This document shows, piece by piece, positions 1 to 31,345 of a stretch of DNA of 64,000 nucleotides; the stretch's first letter is position 1, and every line of letters starts with the position of its first letter. Origin of the DNA: Arthrobacter sp. M2012083. Its GTDB lineage: Bacteria > Actinomycetota > Actinomycetes > Actinomycetales > Micrococcaceae. The stretch is from contig NZ_AKKK01000016.1 in the NCBI RefSeq assembly GCF_000281065.1, positions 1-64,000 of the forward strand. The letters run 5' to 3'. The translations under genes were made by a program, and so were the position numbers. The notes beneath the pieces were generated by a model. That model was not told where the DNA came from. It saw nothing but the letters and a program-made list of their open reading frames with translations, and ran no database searches.

Positions 1-927
1 GCCGGGGAGGTCACCTTTGATGTGGTCACGGACCAGACCAGTGCGCATGATCCCCTGTCTTACCTTCCTGAGGGCATCACCGTGGCCGAGTGGCATGTTG
101 AGGCCGGGGCGGATCCGGAAGGGTTCACGAAGAAGGCTCAGGCGTCCATGGCCCGTCAGGTCCAGGCGATGGTGGAGTTCCAGGATGCCGGGGCTGAGGT
201 GTTCGATTACGGCAACTCGATCCGGGATGAGGCCCGGAAGGGTGGGTACGAGCGGGCGTTTGAGTTCCCTGGCTTCGTTCCGGCGTACATTCGGCCGTTG
301 TTCTGCGAGGGTCTGGGCCCGTTCCGTTGGGTGGCGCTCTCGGGCGATCCGGAAGACATCGCGGTGACGGACGCGGCGATCAAGGAGTTGTTCCCGGAGA
401 ACAAGCACCTGCACAAGTGGATCGATGCTGCGGCCGAACGGGTGGAGTTCGAGGGGCTGCCGGCTCGTATTTGCTGGCTCGGGTACGGCGAACGGGCCAA
501 GGCCGGGTTGTTGTTCAACCAGCTCGTGAAGGAGGGCAAGGTCAAGGCCCCGATCGTGATCGGCCGTGACCACCTGGACTCGGGTTCGGTGGCGTCTCCG
601 TACCGGGAGACCGAGTCGATGAAGGACGGCTCGGACGCGGTCGCTGACTGGCCGCTGTTGAACGCTCTGACCGCTGCCTCCTCGGGTGCTACCTGGGTTT
701 CCATCCACCACGGCGGTGGTGTTGGTATCGGCCGGTCCATCCACACGGGCCAGGTTTCCGTCGCTGACGGCACTGAACTGGCAGCCCAGAAACTCGAGCG
801 GCTCCTGACCAACGACCCCGGCATGGGCGTCATCCGCCACGTCGACGCCGGCTACGACCGCGCCATCGAGGTCGCCAACGAACGCGGCGTCCGCATCCCC
901 ATGAACGAGACCGCCAGGGCGCGGTAA
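1..927 (+). CDS. hutU: Urocanate hydratase, 3' part (5' end outside window)
   Basis: Urocanate hydratase converts urocanate to imidazolone propionate in cytoplasmic histidine degradation, using tightly bound NAD+. The frame is open from base 1 and gives 308 residues, a little over half of the usual ~550, so the 5' end lies outside the window. The stretch [16 protein letters not shown] at the start and the [15 protein letters not shown] ending match the C-terminal half of HutU. A strong hairpin follows the stop. The next large gene is a histidine ammonia-lyase relative. The call is secure from the family match; the N-terminal half was not seen. Confidence 0.95.
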
Positions 928-944
928 CTGCCTCTCGAAGGAAA

Positions 945-989
945 CCCCGGGACGGATAGGCGAGGCATCCTTGCCTAGCCGTCCTGGGG
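945..989 (+). terminator. Hairpin after hutU
   Basis: CCCCGGGACGG (945-955) pairs with CCGTCCTGGGG (979-989), with one G-U pair and a further inner AGGC/GCCT helix. It starts 18 bases after the hutU stop and fits the end of the hut transcript, although no clear T-run follows. Confidence 0.6.
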
Positions 990-1054
990 CAACCTAGGCA
1001 TGAGTTCGAATAACAAACGATCAGCACATCCACCTGAGAGCGAGGAAACGCACC

Positions 1055-1258
1055 ATGGAAAGGGAGAGCCCGGGACCGTGGACATCAGTCGCGATGGGAA
1101 CGCGGGTGACAATGACAAAAGGCGGCCACAATCCGTTTCGGGGGACTGTGGATGATAGAACCGCGGATGGCACAATTCTCTGGATCCTTTCCAGGACAGG
1201 GATTCGGAAGCTCTTTCATACTGAGGACGGGTTTCAGTTGACCCCAGGTGAACGATGA
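1055..1258 (+). CDS. Small hypothetical protein (67 aa)
   Basis: The family is not recognised. The ATG at 1055 has GAGGAAA 7 bases upstream. The protein has alternating hydrophobic strands in its second half (GTILWILSRTGIRKLF), which suggests a small beta-rich fold. It sits alone between hutU and the lyase homologue. No signal peptide or membrane segment is visible. It could be chance, but the ribosome binding site and the sensible composition favour a real gene. Confidence 0.5.
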   Translation: MERESPGPWTSVAMGTRVTMTKGGHNPFRGTVDDRTADGTILWILSRTGIRKLFHTEDGFQLTPGER

Positions 1259-1434
1259 CGGCACTCTTACCACTAGCGTTCCAGCCTGATACCCGGAATC
1301 ATGCTCCGGATGAATACTCATCTCGAGATAGTGCAGGCGTCGAACAACAACAGTTGTCTTGTCCGGAGGACTGCTTTTACTGCACTGCACCGGAAACGGA
1401 TTAGCCCTGGAAACTGACTGGAAAGGACCGGTTC

Positions 1435-2877
1435 ATGGTCACGATTGATGGCTTGACGCTGAACTTGGCCGATGTCGTCGCAGTAGCCGACGGTGAAGAC
1501 GTCGTGCTGGCTCCGGAAGCTTTGGTCCGAATGGACGAATCGCGTAAGTCTGCGGAAGCTACGGCGTTGCGCCGTCCGGTCTACGGCCGATCGACCGGGG
1601 TTGGAGCGAACCGCACCGTTTCGCTGACGGAAGCCGAGGGTGGGGACACCCACGGGCTGAAGCTTCTGCGCAGCCACGCTGTGGATGCGGGCCGTGCACT
1701 GGATCGCAGGACAGTTCGTGCAATGTTGGTTGTCAGGCTCAGCCAATTGGCGGCTGGCGGATCTGGGATCAACCCCTCCATTGCCGAGAAGTTGGTGGAA
1801 CTCATCAATAGCGATGTCGTTCCGGAAATCCGGGAGTTCGGTGGCATCGGAACTGCGGACCTGCAGGCATTGGCCGGCACGGCGCTCACTTTGTTGGGCG
1901 AACGCCAGCCATTGGGTGGCGGCAACGTTCCGGTTCGCCTCACGGGGTGGGCCACGTCCGATGCCCTTCCGTTCATCAGCTCCAGCGCGCTGACTATTGG
2001 CCAAGCGATCTTGGCGCAGCAAAAACTGTCGAGGCTCGTGGATAATGCAGCGTCAGCGGCTGCAATGTCCTTCATTGCCATGTCCGGCAACTCAGAGGCG
2101 CTGAGCCCCGCAGTAGCGGCGGCTGCAGATACTCGAGAGGTGTCGTCGGCCGCAACGATGTTCCATGGCATGGTTCATGGCAGCGGCGAGCCTGCCCGCA
2201 TTCAGGATCCTTACTGCTTGAGGACCTTGCCACAGATTTTTGGTTCCCAAACGGAGGAACTAGCGGGCTTGCATGCTCTTCTGAGCCGTCTTGTCACAGC
2301 GGGCAATGAGAATCCGCTCGTTTACGGCTCGCCGTCAGACGGCACGAACGACGTCGCGCACCACGGGCTCTTCCAGATGACAAACCTTGCCCGCCGCGTG
2401 GATACGTTGCAGCTGGCCATCGGCGCGGCGTGCGCCACTCACCTTCGGAGGATCGACCTCCTTTGCGACCCAAGGTATACGGCCCTGCAACCCTTCCTGG
2501 CTGAGGACGGTTCAGGTCAGTCAGGGGTAATGATGCTCGAATACGTGGCTGCTGCCGCCGTCGGCCGCATTCGGGCCAACGCCCAGCCGGCAAGCCTGCA
2601 GACTGGGGTGCTGTCCCTCGGGGCTGAGGAGGATGCCAGCTTCGCAAGCGTGGCCACCGCCCAGTTGGAGTCGACGGCGGACGCACTCGCCACCGTTGCC
2701 GCCGTCGAGCTTGTTTGTGCTTCCCGTGCCCTGCGGCTGCAGGGGCGACGCCCCGAAGAGTTCGCCAGCGAGCGGCTGCGCGCCATGATGCAGGCAGGTT
2801 TCACGCTGCCGTCCGACGTTGGGGATCGCGACCTTCGTGGTGACCTGGAGCTGGCCATCGAGTTCATAAAAGGTTAA
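1435..2877 (+). CDS. Histidine/aromatic amino acid lyase family protein with altered MIO triad
   Basis: This is a 480-residue member of the HAL/PAL family (PF00221). Recognisable landmarks are YGRSTGVGANR (Tyr50, for YGVNTGFG), QDPYCLRTLPQ (for QDxYSLRCxPQ), NENPL and GAEED near the C-terminus (for NQEDHVSM). The segment that should be GSVGASGDL reads GGIGTADL (residues 136-143). The Ala-Ser-Gly that cyclises to the MIO cofactor therefore appears as Gly139-Thr140-Ala141. The usual LLNGT motif is replaced by FISSSALT. Lyase activity is doubtful. AAGGA lies 7 bases before the ATG. Being next to hutU suggests histidine-related metabolism, but the substrate is unknown. Confidence 0.8.
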   Translation: MVTIDGLTLNLADVVAVADGEDVVLAPEALVRMDESRKSAEATALRRPVYGRSTGVGANRTVSLTEAEGGDTHGLKLLRSHAVDAGRALDRRTVRAMLVVRLSQLAAGGSGINPSIAEKLVELINSDVVPEIREFGGIGTADLQALAGTALTLLGERQPLGGGNVPVRLTGWATSDALPFISSSALTIGQAILAQQKLSRLVDNAASAAAMSFIAMSGNSEALSPAVAAAADTREVSSAATMFHGMVHGSGEPARIQDPYCLRTLPQIFGSQTEELAGLHALLSRLVTAGNENPLVYGSPSDGTNDVAHHGLFQMTNLARRVDTLQLAIGAACATHLRRIDLLCDPRYTALQPFLAEDGSGQSGVMMLEYVAAAAVGRIRANAQPASLQTGVLSLGAEEDASFASVATAQLESTADALATVAAVELVCASRALRLQGRRPEEFASERLRAMMQAGFTLPSDVGDRDLRGDLELAIEFIKG

Positions 2878-5469: not shown

Positions 5470-6774
5470 ATGAGCTTGTCCGATCTACCGGGCCCGGTGC
5501 CGGATCCAGCCGTAGTACGCGGAAGTACCACAACGGCACTGGCGGAGCCTGTTACCCGGGTTCGGCCGATCTGGGTCACCGGCGTCGTGCTCGTGAACCT
5601 GGGCATCAACGCAGCATTCTTTGGTCCCCTTCAAGTTCTTCTCGGGCAGCAGGCAGCCCACTTCGATGAAGGCCAGAAGGAAGCGATCCTGGCTTTGGTG
5701 ACAGGCTGCGGTGCCGCTGTTTCCATGGTTGCGAATCCCTTGTTTGGCGCCTTCAGCGACCGTACGACGTCACGATTCGGACGTCGTGTCCCTTGGGTCC
5801 TGATGGGCGCCATCCTGGCAGCTGTTGCGCTCGTTGCTTTGGCCGGTGCCCCCAATGTTGCAGCCATGACTTTGCTTTGGTGCCTGGTGCAGGCCGGAGC
5901 CAACGCCATGTACGCCGCCATAACGGCCGCCGTACCTGACCGCGTCCCGGTTCCACAGCGCGGAACTGTCGGCGGACTCGCCGCGATGGGGCAGACGGTA
6001 GGTATTCTGATCGGCGCGGTGATCGCGGCGGTGGTTGTTGGAGACTTTGCAGCCGGGTACTGGCTGTGCGCCGCGGCGCTGCTCGCCGGCGTCGTGCTTT
6101 ACCTCTTCAAGAATGACGATCAGCAGCTTCCCCCAACCGAACGCCCGCCCTTCAACCTGGCAGAGTTCCTCAAAGGCTTCTGGGTTTCGCCTCAGCGCTA
6201 TCCCGACTTCGCTTGGGCTTGGCTGACGCGTCTGCTGGTCAGCACCGGTAACCACATGGTCACGTTGTATCTGTTGTTCTTCCTCAGCGATGCCGTGCGC
6301 CTCAAGGAAACCGAGGGAATCGATCCTTCTTTTGGTGTCCTCGTTCTTACCGGGCTTTACGCGGTATCGGTCATTATTACCAGTGTTCTCGGTGGACGGC
6401 TAAGCGACAAGATGGGCAAGCGGAAGCCTCTAGTCATCGCGTCGTCGGTCATCATTGCACTGGCTTCGCTGATCCTTGCCTTCGCACCAACATGGATCGG
6501 CGGTCTCGCCGGGGCGGTGGTGTTGGGGATCGGATTTGGTGCATACCTCGCCGTCGACTTCGCGCTTATCACGCAGGTCCTTCCGACCGGCATGGACCGC
6601 GGTCGGGACTTGGGCGTCATCAACATAGCCAATTCACTGCCCCAAGTGATCGCCCCTTTGATCGCATCGCCGTTTGTCCTGTACTGGGGCGGCTACGTCT
6701 CGCTATACGTAGCCGCCGCAGTCATTGGGCTCTTGGGCGCCGTGTTCGTGGTGAAGATCAAGAGCGTGGACTAG
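5470..6774 (+). CDS. MFS transporter (sugar/glycoside-type)
   Basis: A 434-residue membrane transporter with about 12 helices. FGAFSDRTTSRFGRR (residues 92-106) is the cytoplasmic loop 2-3 signature common in GPH- and SLC45-like actinobacterial MFS proteins. GAGGGG lies before the ATG, and a TAGGCT box about 35 bases upstream could be the -10. The gene is divergent from the RraA-like gene and ends 2 bases before the stop of the convergent FG-GAP gene. The substrate is not identifiable from the sequence. Confidence 0.85.
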   Translation: MSLSDLPGPVPDPAVVRGSTTTALAEPVTRVRPIWVTGVVLVNLGINAAFFGPLQVLLGQQAAHFDEGQKEAILALVTGCGAAVSMVANPLFGAFSDRTTSRFGRRVPWVLMGAILAAVALVALAGAPNVAAMTLLWCLVQAGANAMYAAITAAVPDRVPVPQRGTVGGLAAMGQTVGILIGAVIAAVVVGDFAAGYWLCAAALLAGVVLYLFKNDDQQLPPTERPPFNLAEFLKGFWVSPQRYPDFAWAWLTRLLVSTGNHMVTLYLLFFLSDAVRLKETEGIDPSFGVLVLTGLYAVSVIITSVLGGRLSDKMGKRKPLVIASSVIIALASLILAFAPTWIGGLAGAVVLGIGFGAYLAVDFALITQVLPTGMDRGRDLGVINIANSLPQVIAPLIASPFVLYWGGYVSLYVAAAVIGLLGAVFVVKIKSVD

Positions 6775-6776
6775 GC

Positions 6777-7778
6777 CTAGAACACGGCATTCATGACGTT
6801 CCAGCCGCTACCGACAACCGGCTGCCCTTTCCATGTGAAACCGTAGATGCCCCGGCTGCTGAACCCCGAAGGGTCGGCGAGGTACATCGTGAGCTGACCG
6901 TTCGGGCTGATGCCGTAAACGTCGTTGTAGCCATCGCCATTGAAGTCACCGGCGACCCCAAAGCGACTCAGCACTTCCCAGCCCCTGCCAATGACTCCGT
7001 CGTAGCCGCTGGGATGACCGTACTCATGGAAGAAACCGTTGCGCGGAGAGGACCGAACCTGTAGGTCACCCCACCAACTTCGGGTGAGGACCACGGCCTC
7101 GGGTGTGCCATAGAAATGCCCCGCGCCGGCAGCATCCAGGCCCTGCCAAGCCGAGGAGACCTTGCTGGGTGCGAGCCAGCCGCCCCGCCCGTTTCCTGGG
7201 TAGAGGAATACATTGCCAGCTGCATCCTGGGCAAGGATGTCATTGGTGCCATCGCCGTTCAGATCGCCGGGTGCGATGAGGTTGATGAACCCCTGCCAAC
7301 CTTGGCCGATTTGGAACGCCTGTTTCCACGCCCCGGCGCCGTTTCCTTGGTAAAGGAAGAGCCGTCCGTAGCCGTCCCGGCCCATGACGTCCACTGTTCC
7401 GTCGCCGTCGAAGTCTCCCGGCGAAACCAGGAGGTTGTATATGTGCCAGCCGTTGCCGATTACTTGCGGTGCCCGCCAGTTGCCTCTCCCATCAGTGGGG
7501 TAAAGCAGCAGCCGGCCGGCGGCGTCGCGGGCGAACAGGTCGAAGGTGCCGTCGCCGTCGAAACCCTTCGAGCGGGGCGTCGCTTCGTTCGGCATGGAGT
7601 TGGCCGTTTCAAGGCCAGCCTTTGACCGGACGTTAGAGGTGGTAGAAGTTGAAGCAGCTCTCTCAGGAACCGCGGAAGCAGGCATTGCCGAGGCAAGCAG
7701 CCCGGCGGCTACCAGAGGCGCAGCAATTAAAGAGAGCAGACGGCGCGCAGGCGCGCGAAGGGCAGAGCTGAAGCCCAA
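6777..7778 (-). CDS. Secreted FG-GAP/VCBS repeat protein 1 of 3
   Basis: A signal peptide (LRAPARRLLSLIAAPLVAAG, then a hydrophobic stretch ending MPASA) precedes a set of ~48-residue FG-GAP repeats. The repeats contain calcium-binding loops such as FDGDGTFD, FDGDGTVD, LNGDGTND and FNGDGYND, each followed by LFLYPGNG-type strands. This is the usual beta-propeller of integrin-like surface proteins. The TTG at 7778 is chosen because GGGGGAA lies just upstream and the signal peptide follows directly; an ATG at 7862 would add 28 unlikely residues. Unlike its two neighbours it lacks an N-terminal Ig-like module, and one repeat is degenerate (HFYGTPEAVVL). Confidence 0.8.
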   Translation of the reverse strand: MGFSSALRAPARRLLSLIAAPLVAAGLLASAMPASAVPERAASTSTTSNVRSKAGLETANSMPNEATPRSKGFDGDGTFDLFARDAAGRLLLYPTDGRGNWRAPQVIGNGWHIYNLLVSPGDFDGDGTVDVMGRDGYGRLFLYQGNGAGAWKQAFQIGQGWQGFINLIAPGDLNGDGTNDILAQDAAGNVFLYPGNGRGGWLAPSKVSSAWQGLDAAGAGHFYGTPEAVVLTRSWWGDLQVRSSPRNGFFHEYGHPSGYDGVIGRGWEVLSRFGVAGDFNGDGYNDVYGISPNGQLTMYLADPSGFSSRGIYGFTWKGQPVVGSGWNVMNAVF

Positions 7779-7902
7779 GGATTCCCCCAAATAATAAGGC
7801 GGCACAGAGTTGGCCGAAGAGATCAATTGGGATGACACTACCGCCTGCTGGCCCGCTGGCATATAGCGGTCCGAATATTGCGACGCCGTAGGTGGCTGGA
7901 TG

Positions 7903-9048
7903 CTAGAACAGATCCGTGAACCCGCCCCATCCCCAGCCGACTACTTCAGCGCCAGCCCAGCCGGCATTGCCGTTGCCGTAGTAGGCGCGCAGTTGGCCCG
8001 AGCCGTCCACGGCAAAGACGTCGAGGCTGCCGTCGGCGTTGATATCGCCGGCACTGCCGATCTTGCTCATGCCGTTCCAGCCTTGACCAACGATGGTCAT
8101 GCCGTTCCAGCCACCCGTGCCGTTTCCGCTGTAGAGCCTTAGGTAGCCGGAAGCATCGCGAGCCAAGACGTCGACGTTCGTGTCGCCGTCGAAGTCCCCG
8201 GGAGTGACGATCGCGTTCAGCGCGTTCCAGCCTTGCCCCACGACGGACCTTGGCAGCCAGCCGCCCTCCCCATCACCGGGATAGAGGTAAAGCAAGCCGC
8301 CGGAATCGCGGGCCAGGATGTCGTTGGTGCCGTCGCTGTTAAAGTCCCCGGGGGCCACCAGCGACGTGAAGATGTTCCATCCGGTTCCTACCTTGCGGGG
8401 ACCGTTCCAGCCGCCTGAACCATCGCCGCTGTACAGGTAAAGGCCGCCTGCCGAGTCCCGGCCCAGGACGTCATTGCTGCCGTCGCCGTCAAAGTCGCCG
8501 GGGGAAAGAACTGTGGGGAAGATGTTCCAGCCGGCACCAACAGTCCGTGCAGGTTCCCAGCTGTTGAATACGCGCGGGTACATCACCAAGGCGCCGTCGG
8601 TGCGGCGGGCCAGGAGCTCGAACGCTCCGCGGCTGGTGAAGCCATTGGGGCGGTTCGAGGCAGATATCGGTGCACTTTCTTCGCTGGCAACTTCCATCCC
8701 CTCGCAGGGATGGTTTGCCACGAGGTGCGCTGCGATGGTTTTGCCGCGGTCTTCTTCGCCGAGGAGGTAGTGGGGCCAGGTGGTGTGGTCGGCAGCCAAC
8801 TCGCCATCGCGGGTCCAGTAGATGCGTGTATCGGGCCCGGAGGCCTGGGCGCAGCCCTTATAGGCCATAGGATCCCATGAAACTGTCAGCGTGGAACCAA
8901 CATAAGGGGCACCGGTAATTACTGGAGGTTCAGGGTCCATGTTGGCCATGGCGGGAGTGGGGGCAAGTACTACTGCCGCAAAGATTGCAGCCACTGCTCC
9001 GGCAATTGCCCGGCGCACGCCGGACGTAGGGCGTGATGAAGCAAACAT
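7903..9048 (-). CDS. Secreted FG-GAP/VCBS repeat protein 2 of 3
   Basis: A 381-residue exported protein. Arginines and a hydrophobic stretch ending TPAMA form the signal peptide. An Ig-like module of about 90 residues follows, with two cysteines that may pair (YKGCAQ and NHPCEG). Then come five FG-GAP repeats with loops such as FDGDGSND, FNSDGTND, FDGDTNVD and INADGSLD. GGGGAGG lies 6 bases before the ATG. It is a tandem paralogue of the genes on both sides. The role is not known; surface binding or adhesion is the usual inference for this architecture. Confidence 0.85.
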   Translation of the reverse strand: MFASSRPTSGVRRAIAGAVAAIFAAVVLAPTPAMANMDPEPPVITGAPYVGSTLTVSWDPMAYKGCAQASGPDTRIYWTRDGELAADHTTWPHYLLGEEDRGKTIAAHLVANHPCEGMEVASEESAPISASNRPNGFTSRGAFELLARRTDGALVMYPRVFNSWEPARTVGAGWNIFPTVLSPGDFDGDGSNDVLGRDSAGGLYLYSGDGSGGWNGPRKVGTGWNIFTSLVAPGDFNSDGTNDILARDSGGLLYLYPGDGEGGWLPRSVVGQGWNALNAIVTPGDFDGDTNVDVLARDASGYLRLYSGNGTGGWNGMTIVGQGWNGMSKIGSAGDINADGSLDVFAVDGSGQLRAYYGNGNAGWAGAEVVGWGWGGFTDLF

Positions 9049-9057
9049 TGTGTCCTC

Positions 9058-9093
9058 CCCAGACTTTATGCGGTTAATGGTACCGCGTCTGGG
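9058..9093 (-). other. Hairpin overlapping the ribosome binding site of the preceding gene
   Basis: CCCAGAC (9058-9064) pairs with GTCTGGG (9087-9093), with an inner CGGT/ACCG helix. On the minus strand it lies between FG-GAP genes 3 and 2, and its second arm runs into the GGGGAGG of gene 2. It could be a terminator for gene 3 or could mask the ribosome binding site of gene 2. Confidence 0.45.
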
Positions 9094-9099
9094 ATTTTC

Positions 9100-10227
9100 C
9101 TAGAAGATTGCTGTGAACCATCCAAAGCCTGCGCCCACAACCTCGGAACCCTTCCAGCCGGTCCTTCCGTCGCTGTAGTAGGTCAGCAAGCGGCCTTGCT
9201 GGTCCACACCGTAAACATCGGGGTAGCCGTCGCCGTTGAAGTCACCGGCACCGCCCACGAACCTGAGCGCATTCCAACCGACGCCGATCATCCAGGACCG
9301 TGACCAGCCGCCTGCACCGTTGCCCCCGTAAAAAAACAGGTACCCGCTGCGGTCACGCGCCAGGATGTCTACATTGCCATCGCCATTGAAATCGCCGGGG
9401 GTTGCCAATGCGTCCATGACGTTCCAGCCGGTCCCGACGGCGGCTCGAGGCAACCATCCGCCGGTGCCATTGCCCGGGTAGAGGTAAAGGGCGCCGCCGG
9501 GTTCCCTTGCCAGGACGTCGTTGTGGCCATCGCCGTTGAAGTCGCCCGGGCTGATGATGGAGTCGAACACATTCCAGCCATTTCCGATGGACTTGGCCGG
9601 TTTCCATCCCCCTGCCCCGTCTCCACCGAAGAGGTAAAGCCCTCCAACGGAGTCGCGCACGATTACATCGCTTTTGCCATCGCCGTCGAAGTCGCCCGGG
9701 GAGAATGCCGTGTTGAAGATATTGAAGCCATATCCCACTGTTCGGGCAGGGTCCCAGGCGCTGCCATTCCGCCCGTAGAGCAAAAGCGAGCCGTCGTTGG
9801 CGCGGGTCAGGAGCTCGAAGTTGCGTCCGGTGAATCCTGCGGCCCGGTTCACGGCGCCAACAGGCTTGGTTTCGTTGCTGTGCAGGGATTCTCCGCCGCA
9901 GGCCGTTCTGCTGGCCGTGACGTGGACGGCCATCCGGGAGCCTGTGTCATCGGACTCAAGGAGGTAGCTCCGGGTTGTTTCGCCGGCTACGAGGAAGCCA
10001 TCCCGGGTCCAGTACACCGTGAAGTCCGGGCCTTTGCCGCCCCCGCAGCCATAGAACGTATAGGGACCTATGTCAGCCGTCAGCTTTTTGCCCACAAATG
10101 CTTGCCCATTGAGTATGGGGTCTGGTCCGCTGCTGGGCGCGGCCGACGCCGATAGGGGACTAAGTGCCATGGCCGCCACAGTGGCGGTCAGCAGCGCCGC
10201 TGCAACCCGACGTCGTAATGTCCCCAT
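9100..10227 (-). CDS. Secreted FG-GAP/VCBS repeat protein 3 of 3
   Basis: The same architecture as the middle paralogue: signal peptide (MGTLRRRVAAALL, ending SASA), an Ig-like module with two cysteines (YGCGGG and RTACGG), then five FG-GAP repeats with loops such as FDGDGKSD, FNGDGHND, FNGDGNVD and FNGDGYPD. The ATG at 10227 has GGGAGGAA at good spacing; the ATG nine codons earlier has no such site. It is the first gene of the minus-strand triplet. Confidence 0.85.
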   Translation of the reverse strand: MGTLRRRVAAALLTATVAAMALSPLSASAAPSSGPDPILNGQAFVGKKLTADIGPYTFYGCGGGKGPDFTVYWTRDGFLVAGETTRSYLLESDDTGSRMAVHVTASRTACGGESLHSNETKPVGAVNRAAGFTGRNFELLTRANDGSLLLYGRNGSAWDPARTVGYGFNIFNTAFSPGDFDGDGKSDVIVRDSVGGLYLFGGDGAGGWKPAKSIGNGWNVFDSIISPGDFNGDGHNDVLAREPGGALYLYPGNGTGGWLPRAAVGTGWNVMDALATPGDFNGDGNVDILARDRSGYLFFYGGNGAGGWSRSWMIGVGWNALRFVGGAGDFNGDGYPDVYGVDQQGRLLTYYSDGRTGWKGSEVVGAGFGWFTAIF

Positions 10228-10431
10228 GCGTGTTCCTCCCGGTGCGCCATCCAAACCTGCATGAAGTGTATGTGTCTGCAGGGTAGATAGCCGGGAACGG
10301 CATGGCTCACGGGCGCAAAGGGGCTCTCAGCAAACGGTCATTTTGCTCCCGTATCATTGATGCGATCGGCCAGCCGCGGTTCTTGACCCAGCCGGCCGTT
10401 TCCTTGTCAGCCTGCCAAGAGATCGCCGGAA

Positions 10432-31239: not shown

Positions 31240-31345
31240 CCCGGCAGCCCGTCGTCGAGCCCCCCGAAACCTCCGTCGAGATGGCAGTAGATAACGGACA
31301 TGGTCATCAAATGGCATCCCGGCGGGGAAGAAGGCGGGAAACGGA

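Follow-up and report, generated by a model that had tools for sequence, protein, structure and literature searches.

The gene at positions 1435–2877 (+ strand) of the analysed window—a stretch of 64,000 nucleotides from Arthrobacter sp. M2012083—encodes a 480-amino-acid lyase of the PF00221 superfamily in which the Ala-Ser-Gly triad that makes the electrophilic cofactor MIO is missing, and which belongs to an operon comprising a second copy of hutU and, in its relatives, a dedicated ProV-ProW-ProW-ProX importer. Based on its sequence and genomic setting, we favour, with somewhat better than even confidence, the reading that it is an MIO-less, ergothionase-like lyase that converts hercynine (N-alpha,N-alpha,N-alpha-trimethylhistidine, histidine betaine) into urocanate and trimethylamine. 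The broader proposal is about evenly balanced; it holds that a phylum-wide clade of MIO-free hercynine lyases forms part of an unrecognised histidine-betaine catabolic pathway (ProVWWX, lyase, HutU, and HutF/AAC), in whose core members His309 may replace the lost electrophile.

Soil fungi and actinomycetes produce hercynine, from which ergothioneine is made. If the proposal is correct, the gene would be a genetic marker for the use of histidine betaine and would point to a further bacterial source of trimethylamine; the lyase product would feed normal histidine breakdown, and the enzyme would be an instance of the histidine ammonia-lyase (HAL) fold working without its textbook cofactor. There is also a consequence for annotation, since family scores alone could name such genes histidine ammonia-lyase. 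For the TC1 proteome, PMC6776027 reports a protein termed “histidine ammonia-lyase”, with an ambiguous gene assignment.

The Lyase Gene and Its Cofactor Site

The reading frame begins with ATG and is preceded by a putative ribosome-binding site, GGAAAGGA, at 1420–1427 (+). Its product matches PF00221 with 297.3 bits (cut-off 27.3) over profile positions 1–462 of 466, which places it in the superfamily, and stays below the cut-off of the HutH equivalog model TIGR01225 (231.8 versus 539.15 bits). The original prediction that Gly-Thr-Ala stands in place of Ala-Ser-Gly is borne out by alignments with the genome's own HutH, the HutH of L012, PDB entries 7tqr and 1gkm, and 41 relatives: T-[A/G] and a one-residue gap are found where HALs have the A/C-S-G triad, and codons G139-T140-A141 (1849–1857), together with D142 (1849–1860, +), occupy the place of HAL Ala-Ser-Gly-Asp 142–145 in a loop shortened by one residue (HAL numbering is that of Pseudomonas putida and was verified against the printed chain). 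The LLNGT motif, likewise predicted to be lost, is indeed gone, with HAL Asn195 aligning with Ser182 (1978–1980, +), a serine in 42 of 42 clade members. The published MIO triad is (A/S/C/T)-Ser-Gly, as given in PMC9002059; inspection of the whole 480-residue protein for an intact triad elsewhere revealed none, its xSG strings being GSG at 109, 249, and 359, MSG at 216, and QSG at 362.

Other active-site residues of HAL are retained, all on the + strand. Tyr50 (1582–1584; 41 of 42 members, one gap) corresponds to HAL Tyr53, and Ser80-His81 (1672–1677; His in 42, Ser in 41 of 42) to Ser82-His83, the HAL-type dyad that is named as such in PMC11432326. The segment Q257-D-P-Y260-C-L-R263 (2203–2223) contains the equivalents of HAL Gln277, Tyr280, and Arg283, with Gln and Arg in all 42 sequences and residue 260 being Tyr in 31, Phe in 10, and Ala in one. 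In the segment H309-H310-G-L-F313 (2359–2373), His309 (42 of 42) is found where the genome's own HutH has Ser, and F313 (40 of 42) equals HAL Phe329; Glu398 (2626–2628; 42 of 42) is the counterpart of HAL Glu414. For the Geobacillus kaustophilus HAL, the variants Y52F, H82L, N194D, and E411D are described as having no activity (PMC11432326), and Y52, H82, and E411 of that enzyme correspond to Tyr50, His81, and Glu398 of the lyase. Among the compared residues, as judged from the alignments, the lyase has lost the cofactor triad and its accompanying Asn and has kept the base and the substrate residues. It almost certainly forms no MIO and, because both the triad and Asn195 are lost, it is by these sequence features not a HAL; the predicted absence of MIO and a reaction differing from that of the family are supported by sequence and context.

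The overall fold is uninformative in this respect. In a Foldseek structure search, HALs, aminomutases, and ergothionase all scored TM values of about 0.8–0.87 to the lyase without discrimination, with the HAL HutH (P. putida 1b8f; own HutH on contig C20) at about 0.85 and ergothionase 6s7j, at 0.86, no better than the HALs. The AlphaFold model of the lyase is weak at the active-site loop, where residues 48–68 have pLDDT values below 50.

Conservation, Phylogeny, and Selection

Scanning named genomes turned up close relatives at 21 loci, every one of them under the title Arthrobacter, Paenarthrobacter, or Pseudarthrobacter; 18 of these are full-length and were aligned, while three are broken (L059, L060, and L061). 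Within the genus, seven of the 61 genomes drawn contain a close relative (G000, G008, G012, G042, G043, G054, and, in fragments, G030), and at class level 24 of 394 genomes, own genome included, from 12 genera match at E 1e-60 or better in a profile search, with G-T-[A/G]-D-[L/I] present in all 23 non-own matches. In the resulting 42-sequence alignment (18 named-genome orthologues, 23 class matches, and the window), T140, D142, S182, H81, Q257, R263, E398, and H309 are invariant, and residue 141 is evenly divided between Ala and Gly (21 sequences each). Hence, GT[AG]D is a clade-wide trait and no isolated mutation.

A phylum-level profile search (396 genomes, threshold 1e-50) produced 12 matches, six of them previously unseen. 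These carry GTGD (L151, L152, and L155), G-I-G-D (L150 and L153), or GASGD (L154, a true HAL), so that Ile replaces Thr140 in two more distant relatives. The Ile-bearing gene of L150 adjoins ProV-ProW-ProW (locus L156), for which reason the chemistry seems not to need a dehydratable Thr. According to the alignment, the His309-His310 pair is absent from the distant relatives L150, L151, and L152; His309 is thus not essential to every member, which weakens its candidacy as an essential substitute for MIO.

A 54-row tree (IQ-TREE, LG+C20+F+G4 by PMSF; L111, L112, and L115 left out) unites 40 GTxD rows, including a 43% identical paralogue (L040), in one group with support of 100/100. Alignment and tree thus agree on what the original prediction had proposed to check, namely that GTADL belongs to a conserved clade, with Thr-[Ala/Gly]-Asp in 42 of 42 members. 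The 12 HAL rows form a group of their own (100/98), and ergothionase, represented by one row, and a paralogue of the own genome on contig C39 appear as single long branches between the GTxD and HAL groups. The GTxD rows stand apart from ergothionase, the placement of which is unsure on account of the long branches; since both intermediate lineages are single long branches, one loss of MIO and several losses are indistinguishable.

Comparison of the window gene with three orthologues yielded dN/dS values of 0.084–0.121 (NG86), and over four pairs and both methods (NG86 and YN00) the range, leaving aside one YN00 value, is 0.084–0.152. The lyase is under purifying selection and, with values of 0.08–0.15, very unlikely to be a relic.

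The L059 and L061 loci (Arthrobacter sp. Hiyo8 and Hiyo4) contain a split lyase gene, and hutU is split there, too (in Hiyo4, the canonical copy); the split lyase in these two genomes looks like the result of sequencing error rather than of gene decay.

A Separate Operon with an Importer and a Second hutU

In Paenarthrobacter (G008, L034), an IclR regulator, ProV, two ProW, an OpuAC-type binding protein, HutU, and the lyase follow one another; HutF and an AAC-type amidohydrolase precede them in divergent orientation, as they do at other loci whose stretch extends that far. Of the 12 Arthrobacter-type loci with 5 kb or more of upstream sequence, 11 show the order IclR-ProVWWX-HutU-lyase. In the remaining one, L058 (Arthrobacter sp. 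9AX), an intact lyase follows a short hutU remnant and no ProVWX is present in the preceding 6 kb. The operon of this strain is rearranged or decaying. In the G008 operon, ProV scores 294.6 bits with TIGR01186, under the cut-off of 326.6; the binding protein of the operon matches PF04069 with 168.5 bits, its best NCBIfam model giving 79.6 against a cut-off of 400; and HutU reaches 873.8 bits with TIGR01228 (cut-off 375) versus 628.9 with thiourocanate hydratase (cut-off 930). The importer resembles those of the EgtU/OpuC type (EgtUC, ProX) in combining an ATPase, permeases, and an OpuAC-type binding protein with the ligand Arg kept.

Neighbour genes were assigned by tblastn, as GC3-based ORF picking took some wrong frames in GC-rich genomes. 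Among 20 class loci (the 23 non-own matches minus G190, G250, and G320), a ProV-ProW-ProW-ProX (OpuC/EgtU-type) importer lies beside the lyase in 16, not in L126, L127, L133, and L135, and HutU is found within the fetched stretch in 10 and in none of the other 10. Elsewhere in the phylum—neighbourhoods were fetched without G171 and G725, two of the six new matches—the importer accompanies the lyase in two of three further loci, namely L156, where the contig ends before any ProX, and L157, and not in L158. L157, from a single-contig genome, has the order hutH-proV-proW-proW-proX-lyase-AAC-hutU-hutF on one strand. No ProVWX is seen at the lyase loci L126 (G212) and L127 (G132), both of genus g36; two picked ORFs upstream of the lyase, L127 encodes a PALP enzyme with CBS domains (6759–8147).

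In the 61-genome genus draw, a ProX of at least 82% identity occurs in all seven lyase-bearing genomes and in none of the 54 others; the corresponding hypergeometric value of 2.3e-9 ignores shared ancestry and linkage and merely restates that the genes travel jointly. As a control, the canonical hut locus was inspected in 10 lyase-less genomes: HutU and HutH occur together in 10 of 10 and an APC permease is in the stretch in nine of 10, whereas ProW or ProX was found in none of the 10 fetched HutH stretches, which gave one weak (37%) ProV match. An IclR-type regulator is likewise carried by the canonical hut locus of G012 (L090). The lyase is, thus, located in its own operon with a second hutU, separate from the canonical hut locus.

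In the window itself, positions 1–927 (+) encode the C-terminal part of a canonical urocanase HutU (model positions about 246–545; TIGR01228, 487.5 bits at 22–924, cut-off 375), which scores 342.7 bits with thiourocanate hydratase, under the cut-off of 930, and is placed at C16:7–903 on the window contig. The predicted position of the lyase next to hutU thus stands; the notion that it was merely kept beside the hut genes understated the situation, because the genes belong to an operon of their own that includes a second hutU. The window hutU is incomplete since the contig begins inside the gene. In the own genome, contig C14 ends with the upstream half of the operon (L086, up to base 31279, inside the start of hutU), its ProX lying at L086:8196–9140, and the C14–C16 join is inferred from relatives, not assembled. 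Pieces of hutU lie on C16, C65, and C20; two near-identical copies apparently broke the assembly at this point. The gap between hutU and the lyase gene (window 928–1434) measures 507 bases, versus about 30–330 in relatives.

Two hutU genes are present in the lyase-bearing genomes G008, G012, and G042; G030 has one whole copy and one in three pieces, G043 and G054 show hutU only as assembly fragments, and five lyase-less genomes have one each. Within one genome, the copies are 97.4, 99.1, and 96.4% identical (three genomes), compared with 79–92% between lyase-bearing genomes. This pattern looks like concerted evolution, by which the lyase-linked copy would stay close to canonical urocanase. As the operon HutU is near-identical to the canonical copy and its scores with the thiourocanate hydratase models lie far below the cut-off, urocanate is the probable product; that the protein is an active lyase yielding urocanate is considered likely.

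Proposed Reaction

From the residues retained, the selection on the gene, and the operon linkage, we infer catalysis, a urocanate product, a hercynine substrate, and the roles of individual residues. Hercynine would be imported by the operon's own ProV-ProW-ProW-ProX system. In the active site, Tyr50 would abstract the beta-proton, His81 and Glu398 would assist at the imidazole, Arg263 would hold the substrate carboxylate, and His309—found in the core clade and absent from the most distant relatives—may assist as well. Departure of trimethylamine would leave urocanate, the breakdown of which to glutamate would be completed by the operon HutU and the hut enzymes. Since trimethylamine leaves readily by itself, MIO would be dispensable, as in ergothionase, while HAL needs the cofactor to expel ammonia.

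The closest precedent is ergothionase (Treponema denticola, PDB 6s7j/6s7q; Burkholderia sp. HME13), a PF00221 enzyme that, as described in PMC13405746, releases trimethylamine and lacks MIO. The lyase shares with it the fold, the predicted absence of MIO, and the proposed release of trimethylamine. Read from an alignment of its printed chain, the T. denticola enzyme also has a loop one residue shorter (IG-EG-D), Ser at the Asn195 position, and equivalents of Tyr53, His83, Arg283, and Glu414. The two differ in that the lyase clade has GT[AG]D instead of GEGD, mostly Tyr instead of Leu at residue 260, His309 in its core members, and a canonical HutU instead of thiourocanate hydratase as partner. 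On account of the different partner and a substrate that is only proposed, the lyase is not classed as an ergothionase. With HAL, it has in common Tyr53, Ser82-His83, Gln277, Arg283, Phe329, Glu414, and, presumably, the product urocanate, and it is set apart from HAL by the lack of Ala/Cys-Ser-Gly and Asn195 and by a different importer.

Hercynine as the substrate is rated somewhat above even, and the evidence bearing on it is mixed. EgtD, the hercynine synthase, was not found in any of the six Arthrobacter lyase genomes tested and occurs in 20 of 28 further lyase genomes (G643, with a true HAL, left out). In two of the 20 EgtD-bearing genomes, both of genus g109, the distance to the lyase is 2.7–2.8 kb for EgtD and about 4.5 kb for EgtB; this linkage represents perhaps one event and fits ergothioneine equally. 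EgtUC responds weakly to hercynine, according to PMC9732360. When its cage residues, taken from the same paper, were mapped by counting onto a Listeria homologue (a shift is possible, and four rows are partial), the lyase-linked binding proteins showed Tyr/Asp/Phe/Glu-or-Gln in place of Phe/Tyr/Tyr/Tyr, i.e., two of the four cage aromatics are left, with the ligand Arg kept. The complete aromatic cage expected in these proteins was thus not found in the alignment, which counts against a certain quaternary-amine ligand; a cage that is acidic in part may accommodate trimethylammonium or an amine with fewer methyl groups. Titles and abstract openings returned by a literature search described no hercynine lyase or hercynine-breakdown gene.

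Alternative Readings

The composition of the cage bears on a reading that retains both the chemistry and the urocanate product and assigns to the enzyme N-alpha-mono- or dimethylhistidine or another N-alkyl histidine as substrate. With two of the cage aromatics exchanged for Asp and Glu/Gln, the site could suit an N-H amine, and the evidence from HutU and the lyase fits equally; chemical reasoning speaks against it, a less alkylated amine being a poorer leaving group without MIO, as do the betaine, choline, and ergothioneine binders among the relatives of the importer and the linkage of EgtD, the maker of hercynine, in one genus. We regard it as rather unlikely. That the enzyme is a true ergothionase, cleaving ergothioneine to thiourocanate and trimethylamine, would agree with the missing MIO, the shortened loop, and the Asn195-to-Ser exchange common to both, with EgtUC among the relatives of the binding protein, and with egtB and egtD nearby in one genus. 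It is, however, quite improbable: ergothioneine was rejected as substrate because the partner hydratase is a canonical HutU by the scores given above and near-identical to the histidine-pathway copy, and the lyase itself scores 81.3 bits against ergothionase versus 148.3 and 110.4 against the HALs 7tqr and 1gkm, nor do the two group in the tree, with the caveat of long branches and a single ergothionase row. An MIO-less lyase for another aromatic or betaine substrate, with a product other than urocanate and hut genes nearby by chance or regulation, could account for the 10 of 20 class loci without HutU in the fetched stretch. It appears improbable given that at least 41 of 42 members retain HAL's Ser-His dyad and Glu414 and that, among the 12 Arthrobacter-type loci reaching 5 kb upstream, 11 have hutU immediately before the lyase, this second copy being near-identical to the canonical one; chance placement was rejected as the operon recurs.

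Two further readings, both raised in the original prediction, fared poorly. A HAL that uses a variant cofactor made from Gly-Thr-Ala, with histidine or a different aromatic amino acid as its substrate, could draw on Thr140 and Asp142, which align with HAL Ser143 and Asp145 and are invariant in all 42 sequences. Against this, the would-be cyclising residue is Ala, not Gly, in 21 of 42, Asn195 is lost in 42 of 42, the published triad has Ser in its centre, and the genome already holds a normal HutH with CSG; a Thr-derived MIO was rejected on the Ala at the third position and the Ile that L150 and L153 have instead of Thr, making the variant cofactor very unlikely. The loss of the family's hallmark cofactor and the broken copies at three of the 21 named-genome loci might suggest a relic without catalytic function, or a subunit beside the hut genes that serves regulation or binding. 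Such a status is extremely unlikely in view of the retained HAL catalytic residues and a transporter-urocanase gene arrangement that recurs across the phylum, and the relic was rejected on dN/dS; moreover, two of the three broken copies (Hiyo8, and Hiyo4, which is G030) come from genomes with hutU also in pieces and may be sequencing errors.

Related Genes and Neighbouring Features

The own genome encodes a further PF00221 lyase of 521 amino acids on contig C39 (L041:8999–10564), which resembles the window lyase in having no Ser-Gly triad, one residue fewer (GSVG-SS-DL, i.e., GSSD), and Ser at the Asn195 position, and which should likewise lack MIO. It is 29% identical to the window lyase and, in contrast to it, is accompanied by neither HutU nor ProVWX within its 20-kb stretch; it is flanked by a luciferase-like monooxygenase on one side and a cysteine-synthase-like PALP enzyme on the other, with a sulfate permease and an enzyme of Cys/Met metabolism close by. 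In G054 (contig C22), the 43% identical GTADL paralogue (L040:9110–10555) has Ser replacing His81 and no hut genes in the fetched stretches; a lone extra copy of the 82%-identical ProX is situated about 10 kb from it.

Downstream of the lyase, window positions 6777–10254 (−) contain three tandem related genes with repeated GDFDGDG-type motifs, which we take to be FG-GAP/VCBS-like. Several relatives from Paenarthrobacter and Arthrobacter likewise carry members of this cluster on the downstream side of their lyase gene.
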